Below, one piece after another: positions 43,037 to 49,356 of a stretch of 64,000 bases of DNA (position 1 is its first letter; the number at the start of each line of letters is the position of its first letter). The DNA is taken from the NCBI RefSeq assembly GCF_000744775.1, contig NZ_JQMP01000003.1:434001-498000 (forward strand), read 5' to 3'. This stretch comes from Thermorudis peleae. Its GTDB lineage: Bacteria > Chloroflexota > Chloroflexia > Thermomicrobiales > Thermomicrobiaceae. The notes below the pieces were generated by a model. That model was not told the origin of the DNA. It made no database searches and saw only the letters and a program-made list of their open reading frames with translations. The position numbers were made by a program, and so were the translations under genes.

Positions 43037-44209
43037 CTAGGCGTGCTGATCGGTCGAGGATGTGGCAGCGATGGCTGCTTCCGCGTCGGCTTGGGCGCGG
43101 AGTTGTCCGCAGGCGGCAGCAATGTCGACGCCGCGGGAGTAGCGGACAGTGGCGGGGATGCCGTGGCGGTGCAGGATTGCGGCGAAGCGTGCGATGCGGT
43201 CTGGCGTTGGGCGAGCAAGGTGCGGGGCGGCAGGCGTTGGATTGAGTGGAATCAGGTTCACGTGGCAAAGCAGGCCATGGAGCAAGCGCGCGAGGGCTTC
43301 GGCATGATGATCCTGGTCGTTGACGTCGCGAATGAGGACGTATTCAAAGGAGATGCGCCGTCCAGTCTTGGCGACGTAGCGCCGGCAGGCAGCGAGGAGT
43401 TCGGCGATGGGATAGCGCCGGTTGATTGGCACGAGTTGTGAGCGGAGTGCGTCGTCCGGCGCGTGGAGCGAGATGGCCAGCTTCACCTGGTAGGGCTCCT
43501 CAGCGAGACGGTCGATGAAGGGGACGAGGCCGGACGTTGACAGGGTGATCCGCCGGGCGCCGAGGCCAAAGCCAGCGGGATCATGCAGGATGGCGATCGC
43601 CTTCATCGTAGCATCGTAGTTTTGGAAGGGCTCGCCCATTCCCATGACGACGATGTTAGTGAGTGTACGGCCGCGCTCGCGGGCAAGCCGGGCGGCATAG
43701 ACAACCTGGGAGACGATTTCACCGGCGCTGAGGTTGCGGATGAGACCAGTCATGCCGGTGGCGCAGAAGGCGCAACCGACCGCACAGCCGACCTGGCAGG
43801 ACACACAGACAGTGGTTCGGTCAGGATAGCACATGAGGACGGTTTCGACATGCTCACCGTCGACGGTACGGAAGAGGAGCTTTTCGGTTTCGCCGTCGTC
43901 GCTGGTGACGGTGCGCGTCAGCTGGAGCGTTGTGAGCGGCAGGGTTTCGGCAAGTTGCTGGCGCAGCGCTTTGGGGAGCACCGTCATGGCATGATAGTCA
44001 AGAGCGAGTTGTTGGTATGCCCAGTGGAAGAGTTGCCGGGCTCGGTAGGGTTGGTGGCCCTGCGCAACCAGCCGCTGCTCCAGTTCGGCAAGCGTGAGGT
44101 CATGGAGCGTGGTTGGGCGTTGCTGGCGTGGTCGGCGCGGGCGTATGGTGCGTAGCGGTGTCGGCGTCGTCATCGTTTGTGATGCTTGTGTCACATCGAT
44201 CTTGCTCAT
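43037..44209 (-). CDS. rlmN: 23S rRNA (adenine2503-C2)-methyltransferase
   Basis: 390-residue radical SAM methyltransferase. The cluster motif [11 protein letters not shown] (CxxxCxxC) is intact, with [29 protein letters not shown], and a Cys in [13 protein letters not shown] matching the catalytic methyl-transfer Cys. The first catalytic Cys region reads CVSCQVGC. It modifies A2503 of 23S rRNA and A37 of some tRNAs. The N-terminus is extended by about 25 Arg/Thr-rich residues. It stands alone on the minus strand, with its 5' end facing the fluoride riboswitch. Confidence 0.93.
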
Positions 44210-44282
44210 GACAGCAAGTGTAGCATGGGAAGGGCAAGGCCGTAGGTGAGGGCTGCGTGGCTGAGAGCACGGTGCTGGTGGC

Positions 44283-44291
44283 TGCTATACT
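44283..44291 (+). promoter_or_regulatory. Extended -10 promoter for the riboswitch transcript
   Basis: TGC-TATACT (44283-44291) is an extended -10 element about 19 nt before the aptamer. The -35 region is weak, as expected for extended -10 promoters. It does not overlap rlmN, whose 5' end is at 44209. Confidence 0.55.
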
Positions 44292-44309
44292 GTGATGCCG
44301 AATGATCAT

Positions 44310-44367
44310 GGCGATGGAGCCCGCCAGTGGCGCGGTGCGCCCGAACTGCGGATCAGCTGATGGCTCC
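44310..44367 (+). promoter_or_regulatory. Fluoride (crcB-type) riboswitch aptamer
   Basis: The core matches the fluoride riboswitch: GGCG (44310-44313) pairs with CGCC (44322-44325), enclosing ATGGAGCC. GGAGCC (44316-44321) pairs with GGCTCC (44362-44367) as the long-range helix. AACTG is followed by a CTG...CAG stem and the conserved TGATGG. This is the same layout as the Bacillus cereus and Thermotoga petrophila crcB aptamers I know. An 18-nt insert with its own small hairpin (GGCGC-ggt-GCGCC) separates the second helix from AAC. The 3' arm is shared with a terminator, giving an ON switch when fluoride is bound. Gene controlled: dynamin-like GTPase. Confidence 0.85.
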
Positions 44368-44398
44368 TGGCCGTACGGCCAGGAGCTTTTCTTGTTGT
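44363..44398 (+). terminator. Riboswitch expression-platform terminator
   Basis: GCTCCTGGCC-GTAC-GGCCAGGAGC (44363-44386) is a perfect stem, followed by TTTTCTTG. Its 5' arm is the 3' arm of the aptamer's long-range helix, so the two structures exclude each other. Confidence 0.85.
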
Positions 44399-44417
44399 GG
44401 TGAAGTGGAGGACTGGC

Positions 44418-46016
44418 ATGGATACGACACTGACGATGCTTGGTTCGCTGCTTCAACAACTGGAGCCGCTTCTAACGACGACGGCAGCTGCTCAGCGTGT
44501 TCATGCCCTGGCCGATCGTCTGATGCGTACAACGCTGAACGTGGCAGTGCTGGGACATTTTAAACGCGGCAAGTCGACGCTGGTAAACGCGCTCGTTGGC
44601 TATCCAGTCCTTCCGATGGGCATGGTGCCATTGACAGCGATCGTCACGTATGTCGAAGCTGGTCCGGCATTCTCGGCGACCATCACGTTTCAGGATGGGC
44701 GCACAGCGGAGGTCCCGATTGCGCAGCTTCGGGAGTACATTACCGAAACGGAAAACCCGGCAAACGCGAAGCGGGTCGCTGCGGCAGTGGTCCAGGTGCC
44801 AACAGCACGGCTTCCTCACGGGATTCGTCTCGTTGATACGCCGGGGATAGGGTCGACCTATGTCCACAATACCGCGATTGCGCGTGAATTTGTGGCCGAT
44901 GCAGATGTGGCACTCTTTGTGTTGTCGGTGGATCCGCCAATGAGTGCTGAGGAACGAGCGTTCCTCGAGGAGGTCGCACGCTTCGCTCGCCGCCTGCTGA
45001 TCGTGCTGAACAAGATTGATCGCTATAGCCCTGCGGATGTTGCCGACGTCATAACGTTTACGCGGAAGGTGGTGGCAGATCGTGTGCCAGCGTGTCCAAT
45101 TCTTCCCGTTTCCGCGTTGCTTGCGTTAGAAGGACGGATAGCAGGAGATGCGGCACGAATCGAGCAGAGTGGCATCCAGGCGATCGAGCAGTTTTTGGTG
45201 CAGGAGGTCTATCAGGCACGTGAAGCACTGCTCGTTTCGGCTGCGGTGAATCAGCTGCACATGCTCATCAGCGAGGCGGAACAGCAGCGACAAGCGACGC
45301 TTGCTGGGTTGGCGACCTCGCGCGAGGAGCTTACGCGCCGGCTCGATATGTTTCGACAGCGGGTAGCAGAACTCGACGTCCTTCGTGAAGAGCGCGATGC
45401 CTTGTTGCGCGTGGCACAGGCTCGACTGGTGGATCAGCATCTTGGATCAGCGTTACCGACCTTGCGCGCTGAACTGCTTGCACTGGCGAACCAATTGCCT
45501 GCGCTGATCATGGAAGGGAGCGAGCGCTCGCTGAGGGCGCAGGTGCGGGCAGGAGGCCACTGGATTGTTGAGACGCTGCGTTCGACGACCGTGGCGTGGA
45601 TGCAACGCGAGGAGCCGGCGCTGCTTGACGTGCTTGGAGCGATAACAGAGCGGTATCGTGCAGCGCTGCAGCGTGCGCTGGACGCCTTGCAGGCGCTTGC
45701 CCAGGACGTGCTTGCTGTCCCTGCGTTGCAGGTGCAGGTACCGGAGCCAGTGCCCGTGACTGCACATGCGCGGCTGCAGGTTGTTGATGAACCGGTCATG
45801 CTCGAATTATTGTCGATGTGGTTGATGAGCCATTTGCCCGGGCGGATTGGACGTTGGCTCATCCTCTGGCGAGCACAGCGCCGGCTCGAGGACTATGCTG
45901 ATCGGATGGTCGGTTCAGCGCGATATGCGCTGCGGCAGTGGATTGCCGAGCAGCTTGAAGAGCGACGGGCGGTGCTTGAGTCAGCGGTCTCAGCGGTTCT
46001 TGAGGCGTTGACGTAA
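44418..46016 (+). CDS. Dynamin-like GTPase under fluoride riboswitch control
   Basis: 532 residues of a bacterial dynamin-family GTPase. G1 is GHFKRGKST (46-54), G2 the Thr in PLTAIVTY (Thr73), G3 DTPG (140-143) and G4 NKID (198-201), followed by a long helical bundle/stalk region. Near residues 470-490 an amphipathic, Trp-rich stretch (SMWLMSHLPGRIGRWLILW) looks like a membrane-binding paddle. ATG 44418 follows GGAGG by 6 nt. Such GTPases remodel or repair membranes. The frame ends at an in-frame TAA with coding-like sequence beyond it. Direct fluoride control of a dynamin gene is not something I know of. Confidence 0.85.
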   Translation: MDTTLTMLGSLLQQLEPLLTTTAAAQRVHALADRLMRTTLNVAVLGHFKRGKSTLVNALVGYPVLPMGMVPLTAIVTYVEAGPAFSATITFQDGRTAEVPIAQLREYITETENPANAKRVAAAVVQVPTARLPHGIRLVDTPGIGSTYVHNTAIAREFVADADVALFVLSVDPPMSAEERAFLEEVARFARRLLIVLNKIDRYSPADVADVITFTRKVVADRVPACPILPVSALLALEGRIAGDAARIEQSGIQAIEQFLVQEVYQAREALLVSAAVNQLHMLISEAEQQRQATLAGLATSREELTRRLDMFRQRVAELDVLREERDALLRVAQARLVDQHLGSALPTLRAELLALANQLPALIMEGSERSLRAQVRAGGHWIVETLRSTTVAWMQREEPALLDVLGAITERYRAALQRALDALQALAQDVLAVPALQVQVPEPVPVTAHARLQVVDEPVMLELLSMWLMSHLPGRIGRWLILWRAQRRLEDYADRMVGSARYALRQWIAEQLEERRAVLESAVSAVLEALT

Positions 46017-46178
46017 GGCGTTGAGGCCGTACAGGCTGCGATGTTGGACGGTGAGGATGCCGTTGCGGCGTTGCGTGTGCGGCTGCAGGCGGAGCTGGCT
46101 CAGCTGGAGCAGATTCGTGCGGCACTGGAGGGCGTGGTCTCTGGGGGGCAGCAGGCAACGGTGGCGGAGAAACGATGA
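46017..46178 (+). pseudogene. Coding-like tail beyond an in-frame stop of the GTPase gene
   Basis: After TAA (46014-46016) the same frame continues for 54 more codons with helical, protein-like composition (VEAVQAAMLDGEDAV ... LRVRLQAELAQLEQI) to TGA at 46176-46178. Sense codon before TAA is ACG; a TAA to CAA change would join them into a 586-residue protein. A stop mutation, a sequencing error, or readthrough are possible. Confidence 0.6.
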
Positions 46179-46229: not shown

Positions 46230-49049
46230 TTATGGATACGGCGTGCCGTAGCGGTTGTGCAGGACTTGGGCGCCGAGGCGTCCGAGCAGCACGTCATACC
46301 GCTGCGGGAATTCGCCGGGGTGCCATTCGAAACGCTCGCGCTCGAAGTACTGCACGGTATAGACCTTGCCAGTATCGGGGTTGACTTCCTGGAATTCCTC
46401 GGAGATTGGATAGCCGAAGGTTGCCAGGCCGCCGAACTGCTCCCAATACGCGCGGAAGCCCGAGCAGAGGTTATGGCGCGTCTGTGGGAAGTAGATGCAG
46501 GCCGGGCTGGAGTTGGGCTGAGCCGGCTGGAAGGCTGGATCCGTGCGGCCAGCAGTCACTTCGTCACCGAGCAGGCCGAGCAGCACGTCGTAGCGCTGCG
46601 GGAACTGGCCTGGGTGCCACTCGAAGCGGGCCCGCTCAAAGTACTGCACCGTCAGGCCGTTCTCCTGGAACTCCTCGGTGATCGGGTAGCCGAAGATGGC
46701 CAGGCCGCCGAACTGCTGCCAGTAAGCTCGGAAGCCAAAGCAGAGGTTATGGCGCGTCTGCGGGAAGTAGATGCAGGCTGGGCTGGGATTCGGGGCAGCC
46801 GGCTGCGCTGGGCCAAAGCCTGGTGAGGGTGGCGGTGGCGGAGGCGCGGCGGCCGTCCAGTTAACTGTGGCGGTGGCGGTCGGGTTGCCTGCGACCTGCG
46901 CCGTTGCGGTCACGGTGTCGGTGCCCGCGTTGCTGCCGCTATAGGTGATAGTCGCCTGGCCGTTCGCGTTCGTGACCACGGAAAATGTGCGCGGGTTCGC
47001 GCCGGTGACGGTAACGGTAATGGTAATGTTGCTCACTGGACCGCTTGGATTAACGAGTGTTGCGGTGAGCTGGGCTTGATTGCCGACCGTCACGTTCTGA
47101 GTCGCTGGGACAAGAGTAAGCGTTGGCGCCGCGGCAGGGGTGATCGTGACTGGCACCGAGATCGTCTGGTTATCAACCGTTGCTGACACCGAGACGACGC
47201 CGCTCTGCAGTGCGGTGAGGGTCGCCGTTGCCTGGCCGTTGGAGAAGGTGGCATTGACTGGCGCGATTGTGGCAATGGCGAGGTTTGTGCCGAAGCTGAC
47301 CGGTGTGCCGTTTGGCACGTTGTAGCCCCCGCCAGCGATGGTCGCGATGACCTGCGCTTGACCGTTGGGTGGCAACGTCAAGGGGTTGACGGACAGGACG
47401 AGCTGGAGGGTCGGCTGGTAGAGGACGTTACCGTTGAAGGAGTTCGCTGGCGGGATGTTTTGGCCCCACCAGTTGTAGCGGGCGTCAAAGGTTGCGGAGG
47501 TTCCGCCGACGCTCTTGGCGTTGAACCCGTTGTTGATCACGATGCGGTTGCCATGGGCGTTGAAGATGGTACCGGTCGCGTTGTTCGTGGCATCGCGGCT
47601 AAGGGCGGCGCTCGTCGTGCCCGTGATGACGTTGCTGTTTGCCGTCACGTTGGCGCTACCGCTGGCTGTCGCAACGGCGATGCCGATCGCGCCGTTCTGA
47701 ATGGTGTTGCCCTGGATGGTTGCCGTGCTGTCAGTGGCAGCGATGCCCGTGCCGCTAGCTGGCGAGGTGATGGTGTTGCCGTTGACGGTGACGTTCGTCA
47801 CGCCGGTCAGGCTGATGCCCGTGGCGTTGCCAGCCAGCGTGTTGTTGGTGACAGAGACAGGGCCATTTGTATTGGCAATCGCGATGGCGTTGCCCTGGCT
47901 AACGTTCTTGATGGTGTTCCCTTGCAGCGTGCCGGTGGCTGAGGTGAGCGCAATGCCCGACTGGTTGGCGTTGTTGCCGCCATTGACGGTGCTGTTGCTC
48001 ACGTTGAATGTCAGGTTGCCATTGTTGCCGACGCCCTTCATTGCTGCGCCGACATTATTGCCGAGTGTCACGGTCAGCCCGTTTAGGGCGACAGTGTGGG
48101 CAGTGTTGCTGCCGGAATTGTCGGCGAGCACGCCGGTGTCGGCTTTGATGGTCAGGTTACTGGCATTGCCGTTCACGCCGCAGAAGAGGACCCCAACTGC
48201 GCCGTTCTGGCTGCTGTAGTCGATGGCGAGATTCTGCAACGTGGCGGTGCTTGCTGGTCCAACGACGCCAACGGCGGCGGTCACCGGGCCGTTGCAGGAC
48301 GTTGGCGAGAGTGAGGATGGCGGGGTGAGTACGGTGGCCCCAGAGCCAGACTGGCTACTGCCCTGGATTGTCAGGTTCTTGTTGACCGTAACCTGTTCCT
48401 GGTAGGTGCCTGGTGCGACGCGGATCGTGCTGTTTGCACTGGCGGCGTTGACCGCGGCGCTAATTCCCGCGTTGAGTGTGTAGGACAGTGAGTTTGCTGA
48501 AGCTCCGATAAGATTTATGGTTATTTGATATGTTTTGTTCGACTGTGTATTGAGGAAACCGATCCTAAGTTGGAAGGTTTTGGTCTGATTGGCAGGTACT
48601 GAAAAGCCAGGTGCTGCTGGGAAGGTGTAAAAGAAGGTGTTTGGATTTTGTTGATTGGATGGATTAACAGATTGCCAGTTGTTTCCGTCCCAATACGAGA
48701 GGTCTAAGGGAGACCCCTGGGCAATGTTTACTTGGACGGCGACCTGAACTTGCAAGCCACTAAGGTCCTGGGATCCGGCAGTGATGCTTAGTCCAACTCG
48801 ATAAAACTGATTGCCGTTTCCCCAGTCTTTCAGGGCGAAGGCGTCCTGGGGGGTCGGCGTGCTGATCACGAGCGGACCGGGATCGCCTTGTTGGACGCTT
48901 GAGGGTGTGACTAAGGCAATGGTGGCGTTATTGGCTGCTGCAACAGGCAGCAGGCCGAGGGGGAGGAGAAGATTGGCAATGGTGAGTGCAAAAGCAAGGG
49001 TGAGTCGGTGCAGCCATCGTGGCCGATAAAGCGCTCTGCGATTGCGCAT
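46230..49049 (-). CDS. Secreted beta-helix protein with Ig-like domains and two C-terminal Chloroflexota-type repeats
   Basis: 939 residues. Signal peptide about 1-38 (LTLAFALTIANLLLPLGLLPVAAA region). Residues 40-195 form a beta-rich domain. About 195-560 is a right-handed parallel beta-helix (NosD/pectate-lyase-like) with recurrent GNTI, VTNN and NGNT turns. Two bacterial Ig-like domains follow (about 575-770). The C-terminus has two copies of a ~75-residue unit with CIYFPQTRHNLC, FGGLAIFGYP and FEWHPGQFPQRYDVLLG. ATG 49049 follows AAAGGACTGGAGCA. No catalytic residues recognised; likely a surface or binding protein. Confidence 0.82.
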   Translation of the reverse strand: MRNRRALYRPRWLHRLTLAFALTIANLLLPLGLLPVAAANNATIALVTPSSVQQGDPGPLVISTPTPQDAFALKDWGNGNQFYRVGLSITAGSQDLSGLQVQVAVQVNIAQGSPLDLSYWDGNNWQSVNPSNQQNPNTFFYTFPAAPGFSVPANQTKTFQLRIGFLNTQSNKTYQITINLIGASANSLSYTLNAGISAAVNAASANSTIRVAPGTYQEQVTVNKNLTIQGSSQSGSGATVLTPPSSLSPTSCNGPVTAAVGVVGPASTATLQNLAIDYSSQNGAVGVLFCGVNGNASNLTIKADTGVLADNSGSNTAHTVALNGLTVTLGNNVGAAMKGVGNNGNLTFNVSNSTVNGGNNANQSGIALTSATGTLQGNTIKNVSQGNAIAIANTNGPVSVTNNTLAGNATGISLTGVTNVTVNGNTITSPASGTGIAATDSTATIQGNTIQNGAIGIAVATASGSANVTANSNVITGTTSAALSRDATNNATGTIFNAHGNRIVINNGFNAKSVGGTSATFDARYNWWGQNIPPANSFNGNVLYQPTLQLVLSVNPLTLPPNGQAQVIATIAGGGYNVPNGTPVSFGTNLAIATIAPVNATFSNGQATATLTALQSGVVSVSATVDNQTISVPVTITPAAAPTLTLVPATQNVTVGNQAQLTATLVNPSGPVSNITITVTVTGANPRTFSVVTNANGQATITYSGSNAGTDTVTATAQVAGNPTATATVNWTAAAPPPPPPSPGFGPAQPAAPNPSPACIYFPQTRHNLCFGFRAYWQQFGGLAIFGYPITEEFQENGLTVQYFERARFEWHPGQFPQRYDVLLGLLGDEVTAGRTDPAFQPAQPNSSPACIYFPQTRHNLCSGFRAYWEQFGGLATFGYPISEEFQEVNPDTGKVYTVQYFERERFEWHPGEFPQRYDVLLGRLGAQVLHNRYGTPYP

Positions 49050-49356
49050 TGCTCCAGTCCTTTCTCTCCGCGCTGTGGTCACTGATCGTTGCCTCAGCTT
49101 CTCTGGATTGGCTGGTGGTCCGCGCGCGCCGTCGTGCCATCGATGATCAACTGGATTGTCGTGCCGTATCATGGTTCTCTCTCACTGCTGATGGGTTGGT
49201 TCTCTTCTGCTCTCCTAATACAATAGAACGATGCTGGAGTGCAAAAGTTACGCGGTGGCTGAGGGGCGACGTGGGGCAGTGGGGGATGGTATGCCTACGG
49301 TAGCATACACGCGTGCACGCGTGAGGACGATGACTCAGGAAGGGTGAAGGGTTGCG
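49050..49356. other. Intergenic region with a 16-bp palindrome
   Basis: It holds CACGCGTGCACGCGTG (49308-49323), a perfect 16-bp palindrome made of two CACGCGTG units, 34 nt before the OsmC gene; a possible operator. Promoters of the flanking divergent genes must lie here but none is convincing. Confidence 0.5.

Follow-up and report, generated by a model that had tools for sequence, protein, structure and literature searches.

A fluoride riboswitch paired with a dynamin-like GTPase gene in Thermorudis peleae and across bacterial phyla

The toxicity of fluoride is normally attributed to the inhibition of enzymes, and export is the normal countermeasure. In the stretch of Thermorudis peleae DNA analyzed here (64,000 nucleotides, hereafter the window), a first-pass annotation had placed a fluoride riboswitch in front of a gene for a dynamin-like GTPase. 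This arrangement raises the question as to whether the riboswitch indeed controls this gene and, if so, what a dynamin might contribute to life with fluoride.

With the RF01734 covariance model, we could establish that the leader contains a significant match to the fluoride riboswitch aptamer (Table 1; E = 4.9e-06 for the 64 kb and 1.9e-08 for the local stretch), which is the only Rfam match above a gathering cut-off within the window. P1, the GATGGAG loop, the AACTG segment, P3, and TGATGGCTCC are all kept in the alignment to this model. A long insert separates P1 from the AACTG segment and may explain the modest score. The crcB-type core that had been read from the letters was thereby recovered by the model, with P1 and the pseudoknot located. 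Equally, the proposed ON-switch layout, in which a 3' arm is shared with a perfect terminator, was borne out: the 10-pair hairpin GCTCCTGGCC-GTAC-GGCCAGGAGC (44363-44386), followed by TTTTCTTGTT, contains in its 5' arm the 3' pseudoknot strand of the aptamer (44362-44367), so that the expression platform and the aptamer exclude each other. This hairpin is the stronger of two terminator-like sites in 44100-44450, where 0.1 would be expected from shuffled sequences, and the leader RNA folds with a z score of -2.46. A simple scan found no sigma-70-like promoter. The better start codon is ATG 44418, which is accompanied by GGAGGA, and not GTG 44397.

Strand exchange between pseudoknot and terminator is the arrangement described for transcriptional fluoride riboswitches (PMC2864571; PMC13273304). 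The leader thus shares its aptamer core, pseudoknot, terminator overlap, and ON logic with the crcB RNA motif (RF01734; Weinberg 2010, PMC2864571; Baker 2012). We infer that this leader binds fluoride and that binding induces the gene. Without fluoride, the terminator at 44363-44386 would form and transcription would stop. With fluoride bound together with Mg2+, the pseudoknot 44316-44321/44362-44367 would hold the strand needed by the terminator, which would then fail, so that the dynamin gene would be transcribed and the protein made.

Table 1. Features of the riboswitch-dynamin locus (window positions) and examples of DUF6062 genes in the surveyed loci (locus positions).
Feature	Position	Strand	Basis or remark
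Fluoride riboswitch aptamer (RF01734)	44301..44376	+	cmscan 35.2 bits, gathering cut-off 34
Aptamer P1	GGCG 44310-44313 / CGCC 44322-44325	+	
Aptamer pseudoknot	GGAGCC 44316-44321 can pair with GGCTCC 44362-44367	+	read from sequence
Intrinsic terminator of expression platform	44363..44396	+	10 perfect pairs, GTAC loop, then TTTTCTTGTT T-run
Shine-Dalgarno-like GGAGGA	44407..44412	+	5 nt before ATG 44418; read from sequence
Dynamin-like GTPase, 532 aa	44418..46016	+	Pfam Dynamin_N (PF00350), E 2.9e-28
G1/P-loop GHFKRGKS, residues 46-53	44553..44576	+	motif read
TETENPAN, residues 109-116	44742..44765	+	clade-diagnostic TExxNPxN before G3
G3 DTPG, residues 140-143	44835..44846	+	motif read
G4 NKID, residues 198-201	45009..45020	+	motif read
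Trp-rich hydrophobic stretch W468-W484	45819..45869	+	near predicted stalk tip (AlphaFold2)
In-frame continuation after TAA	46017..46178	+	53 codons, then TGA 46176-46178
DUF6062 examples	L006:6642-7403, L007:4798-5949, L080:4703-5431, L185:7746-8399, L194:10329-10985, L131 C-terminal half		

The encoded protein is a dynamin-family GTPase, as had been claimed, given its Dynamin_N match and its G1, G3, and G4 motifs; the Trp-rich stretch ascribed to it is also present. K49, R50, G51, and K52 are invariant across 50 aligned family members. An AlphaFold2 model (pLDDT 86.7, pTM 0.63) places long helices at residues 268-432 and 475-531 behind the G domain, and both this model and Foldseek give the protein the large size and the long helical neck and trunk of dynamins. 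The stretch W468-W484, which may act as a membrane-binding paddle, is a possible membrane contact in this model; residues 431-470 have low pLDDT. Among known structures Foldseek ranked IniA first (8.1e-19) and BDLP next (2.1e-17); the TM-scores are low (0.3-0.4), as might be anticipated for proteins that hinge as dynamins do.

We compared the protein with its best-known relatives. Mycobacterial IniA (6j72; PMC6715688), the best structural match, shares 18% identity with it in the fold alignment and would resemble it in stress-induced expression, but the inducers in mycobacteria are antibiotics. Bacillus DynA (NF052648; PMC8844932) shares the dynamin G domain, and its protection of membranes under stress may be counted as a likeness, but it consists of two fused dynamin units (model length 1187). 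The window protein scored 67.2 bits against the DynA equivalog cut-off of 1600, and no NCBIfam model reaches its cut-off for it. Of the solved structures, Nostoc BDLP1 (2j68/2j69) is the closest in sequence (phmmer, 1.6e-19 to 2j68); it shares the G domain and the helical neck and trunk, but is longer (695 aa) and remote. The LeoA/LeoBC dynamins (PADLOC) show profile similarity (1.4e-20); since no Leo partner dynamin gene was found among the neighbors, we rejected an assignment to the anti-phage Leo system. We know of no riboswitch in front of IniA or the Leo loci, of no link between BDLP1 and fluoride, and, more generally, of no precedent for a dynamin family under riboswitch control.

The window copy may be damaged, because its ORF is shortened by an in-frame TAA (46014-46016) that the first-pass annotation had not mentioned. 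The 53 codons that follow align without gaps to the conserved C-terminal helix of relatives, most of which measure about 590-600 aa as compared to the 532 aa of this ORF. The last helix is therefore probably cut off by a nonsense codon, which would be either a nonsense mutation or a sequencing error.

The host genome (2.93 Mb) carries four RF01734 matches, and the three outside the dynamin locus score higher than the one described above. They precede an MFS transporter gene (L005:4266-5480; C3, RF01734 at 398144), a Na+/H+ exchanger gene followed by Usp-like and DUF6062 genes, and a DUF6062-like gene followed by MoxR. No known fluoride exporter had been noted beside the dynamin gene. This observation holds within the window and, for CrcB, extends to the entire genome, which contains no match to PF02537 at 96.8% completeness. 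It has two CLC homologues, both of them missing GNN, a motif that a riboswitch-led CLC from a relative does carry. Judged by sequence, the host is thus without CrcB and without a recognizable CLC-F, and its riboswitch-led MFS transporter is a candidate for an uncharacterized fluoride transporter. The window dynamin is the only match of its kind in this genome at the threshold used.

The order of riboswitch, DUF6062-like gene, and then a MoxR ATPase operon (L007:4689-8653) is a side observation in its own right. Apparently similar loci occur in related genomes (L071, L073, L075, L077, L079, and L084), and this arrangement is not among the fluoride targets named in the papers cited here.

Within the phylum of the window we surveyed 301 genomes, 95 of which contain RF01734. 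Strong homologues of the dynamin (E < 1e-39) lie almost exclusively on contigs that also carry the riboswitch. In six genomes (G278, G208, G343, G216, G308, and G190) the aptamer is directly upstream on the same strand, and in G115 it lies about 0.6 kb upstream. The dynamin of G224 starts at a contig edge, and kilobases separate the riboswitches from the dynamin in G317, G212, and G273. Weaker homologues from other dynamin groups in the phylum have no RF01734 nearby. Vertical inheritance together with the riboswitch inside the host's own family was considered and not seen: the best match from that family (G003, 31% identity) is unlinked. A class-level relative (G077) does carry the pair. Its dynamin (L066:2715-3527) is shortened, with an apparent frameshift in the P-loop and an end soon after G4, and appears to be a decayed or mis-sequenced copy.

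Scanning genome contigs with the window protein alone gave no match. Because this protein is divergent, we used an alignment of its relatives for the wider scan, which covered one genome per species from about 85,000 species. The best 80 loci were picked by protein similarity alone, without regard to riboswitches, and a locus was called linked if Rfam coordinates place RF01734 on the same strand and no more than 600 bp upstream of the match. By this measure 47 of the 80 loci are linked. A stricter regex motif filter reduced the number to 25, and the aptamer core is visible in the sequences of the loci defined by Rfam coordinates. RF01734 occurs somewhere in 76 of the 79 genomes that host these loci, as compared to the 95 of 301 in the phylum of the window. 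From the end of the aptamer to the predicted start there are fewer than 200 nt in nearly all linked loci, and a simple search found a terminator at the aptamer 3' end, nearly always overlapping it, in 36 of 50 dynamin-linked aptamers including that of the window. The pair occurs in at least eight bacterial phyla besides that of the window; by the names of mostly metagenome-derived records, the linked loci belong to Nitrospirota, Thermodesulfobacteriota, Myxococcota, Bacillota, Actinomycetota, Planctomycetota, Pseudomonadota, Ignavibacteriota, Chloroflexota, candidate KSB1, and others.

A tree of 126 proteins, built by a quick method, unites all 55 riboswitch-linked rows in one clade of 91 (SH-aLRT 98), and none of the 35 rows outside this clade is linked. 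The window protein falls inside it on a long branch; deep branching within the clade is poorly resolved. Members are recognizable by TExxNPxN before DTPG, which is present in 89 of the 91 but in only 2 of the 35 other dynamin relatives. Switch anatomy, gene order, conservation, clade, and fold class can all be read at the level of sequence. The riboswitch-dynamin pair marks a widespread family rather than the curiosity of one genome as which it had first been treated.

We also considered whether the juxtaposition arose by chance or whether the Rfam match is a near-threshold false positive. The window aptamer scores only 1.2 bits above the cut-off, but its terminator overlaps the aptamer, the host genome has three stronger matches, which precede MFS, Na+/H+ exchanger, and DUF6062-like genes, and at the family level conservation at 47 of 80 loci eliminates this explanation. 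By our own estimate, which assumes a few aptamers per 3 Mb, a single such placement would have a chance probability of about 1e-4. We regard this reading as hardly credible. The proposal that a fluoride riboswitch controls a dynamin-family GTPase gained support from the Rfam match, the overlapping terminator, and, above all, the recurrence of the pair among the nearest homologous loci of many phyla, and we consider it almost certainly correct.

Within 5 kb of the 80 dynamins, with representatives checked by Pfam, the most recurrent neighbors encode MFS transporters (16 loci), Na+/H+ exchangers (14), DUF6062 proteins (14), UspA (10), DUF190 (9), Zn-ribbon/HEAT proteins (8), MutS_V proteins (8), CrcB (7), HAD proteins (7), enolase (6), H+-pyrophosphatase (5), and Nuo/Hyf-like subunits (5), and most of them share the strand of the dynamin. 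One locus (L202) strings together riboswitch, dynamin, two small ORFs, enolase, Na+/H+ exchanger, Usp, and MFS genes. The targets of fluoride riboswitches that the papers cited here name are CrcB, CLC-F, Na+/H+ antiporter, pyrophosphatase, HAD, enolase, formate hydrogenlyase, MutS, and UspA, and many of the neighbor kinds are listed among them (PMC11139923; PMC2864571; PMC5533749). The dynamin-like GTPase is not among the targets named in these papers. The loci resemble known RF01734 systems in that the usual regulon genes lie near the relatives' dynamins as well as behind the other riboswitches of the host. The fluoride-responsive FRM operon of Enterobacter cloacae (PMC5533749) similarly places several genes, with Usp, enolase, pyrophosphatase, and CrcB, under one fluoride riboswitch but, unlike the window and its relatives, contains no dynamin.

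Counting direct riboswitches, same-strand upstream riboswitches, and regulon neighbors, about 70 of the 80 loci are tied to fluoride. Far-upstream riboswitch matches were checked for the motif at that place. L172 and L182 failed this check, so only their regulon neighbors should count, and the riboswitch before L206 was assigned by regex alone. For about 10 of the 80 relatives no tie to fluoride was seen; four of these have less than 1.1 kb of upstream sequence. The dynamin would be a standing component of the fluoride-stress regulon of bacteria. The proteins form a distinct clade of IniA/BDLP-like dynamins from many phyla, usually riboswitch-led or beside regulon genes for CrcB, Na+/H+ antiporter, enolase, pyrophosphatase, UspA, or DUF6062.

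DUF6062 (PF19538) is a Cys/His-rich domain that is frequent in fluoride-riboswitch loci and is itself riboswitch-led (Table 1). We know of no function for it, and no paper on it was found in the searchable literature. In five Chloroflexota (L120 and L128-L131) a single protein carries the G domain and, behind it, a Cys/His domain of the DUF6062 type; this fusion is clear in L131, below the cut-off in L120, and judged from the alignment in the others. In L185 the riboswitch-dynamin unit has a DUF6062 gene immediately behind it. These fusions and this tandem, together with the Nuo/Hyf-like subunits in five loci, would suit a dynamin that helps to build, position, or protect one of the regulon's membrane complexes (a Hyf/Nuo-like complex, an antiporter, or a DUF6062 metal or redox protein) rather than the lipid bilayer as such. 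Most members, however, are not fused, some are lone riboswitch-dynamin units (L196 from Natronincola and L201), and DUF6062 itself is without a known function. We consider this role improbable.

The lack of CrcB in the window genome might suggest yet another task, namely that the dynamin pinches off vesicles to extrude fluoride or fluoro-metal species where CrcB and CLC-F are missing. IniA-type dynamins do mediate membrane fission (PMC6715688). On the other hand, CrcB often adjoins family members (7 loci), and vesicles are a poor means of moving a small anion. Such budding seems very unlikely.

The frequent enolase and H+-pyrophosphatase neighbors point to a further alternative, by which a housekeeping GTPase would be made in quantity or in a fluoride-tolerant form to compensate for inhibition. 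Metal fluorides (AlFx, MgFx, and BeFx) lock P-loop GTPases with GDP. Over-production of enolase is an accepted fluoride response (PMC11139923). Contrary to this idea, the single match in the host genome at the threshold used leaves no close paralogue to replace, and we saw no clade-specific change in the active site: the window protein has canonical G1, G3, and G4 motifs. Moreover, bacterial dynamins are generally dispensable. Replacement of a target is in our view unlikely.

Protection of the membrane appears to be the most economical role, since entering fluoride behaves as a weak acid and upsets both pH and ion balance (PMC11139923), and since dynamins of this kind work at membranes. IniA, which is induced by drugs, mediates membrane fission (PMC6715688), and DynA clusters at the membrane, delays lysis, and helps to keep the membrane intact under stress from phages or antibiotics (PMC8844932). 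The case for a membrane role is built from the fold and these far relatives (about 17-18% identity). We propose that the induced dynamin would assemble on the inner membrane and would protect or remodel this membrane during the entry of fluoride as HF, which acidifies the cell. Taken as a whole, the statement that a fluoride ON-switch turns on a regulon dynamin that acts by protecting or reshaping the inner membrane is one that we somewhat favor. For fluoride-induced membrane protection as the function of the dynamin, we see even chances. Similarly balanced is the broader notion of a dedicated fluoride-induced dynamin family, partly fused to or in tandem with DUF6062, that forms a membrane-protection or remodeling arm separate from export and enzyme replacement.

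Both the riboswitch class and the protein superfamily are known, and we did not find a conserved pairing between them described. The searchable literature yielded no link between fluoride riboswitches and dynamins, and an earlier mention in target lists of subscription papers or supplements is possible. A conserved, riboswitch-led dynamin clade in many phyla would mean that bacteria also spend a membrane GTPase on fluoride. It would point to membrane damage or remodeling as an overlooked side of fluoride stress, and a membrane-remodeling GTPase would look like a standard part of bacterial fluoride survival. Bacterial dynamins, the functions of which are mostly unknown, would gain a defined chemical inducer and a testable phenotype. 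The analysis also names two unstudied companions in the fluoride regulon, DUF6062 and an MFS transporter.

Three minor observations concern other proteins. A small protein with a Zn-ribbon and HEAT repeats stands beside riboswitch-linked dynamins (L198:7663-8166 and seven other loci). A MutS_V-domain protein recurs in fluoride loci (L182:3456-4988 and seven others) and probably corresponds to the "mutS" association in the 2010 paper on the crcB motif. Finally, the dynamin gene of the window has as neighbors RlmN and a large surface-type protein on the other strand (46230-49172) with beta-helix and Ig-like domains, the C-terminus of which carries two repeats (CIYFPQTRHNLC...FGYPI.EEF).
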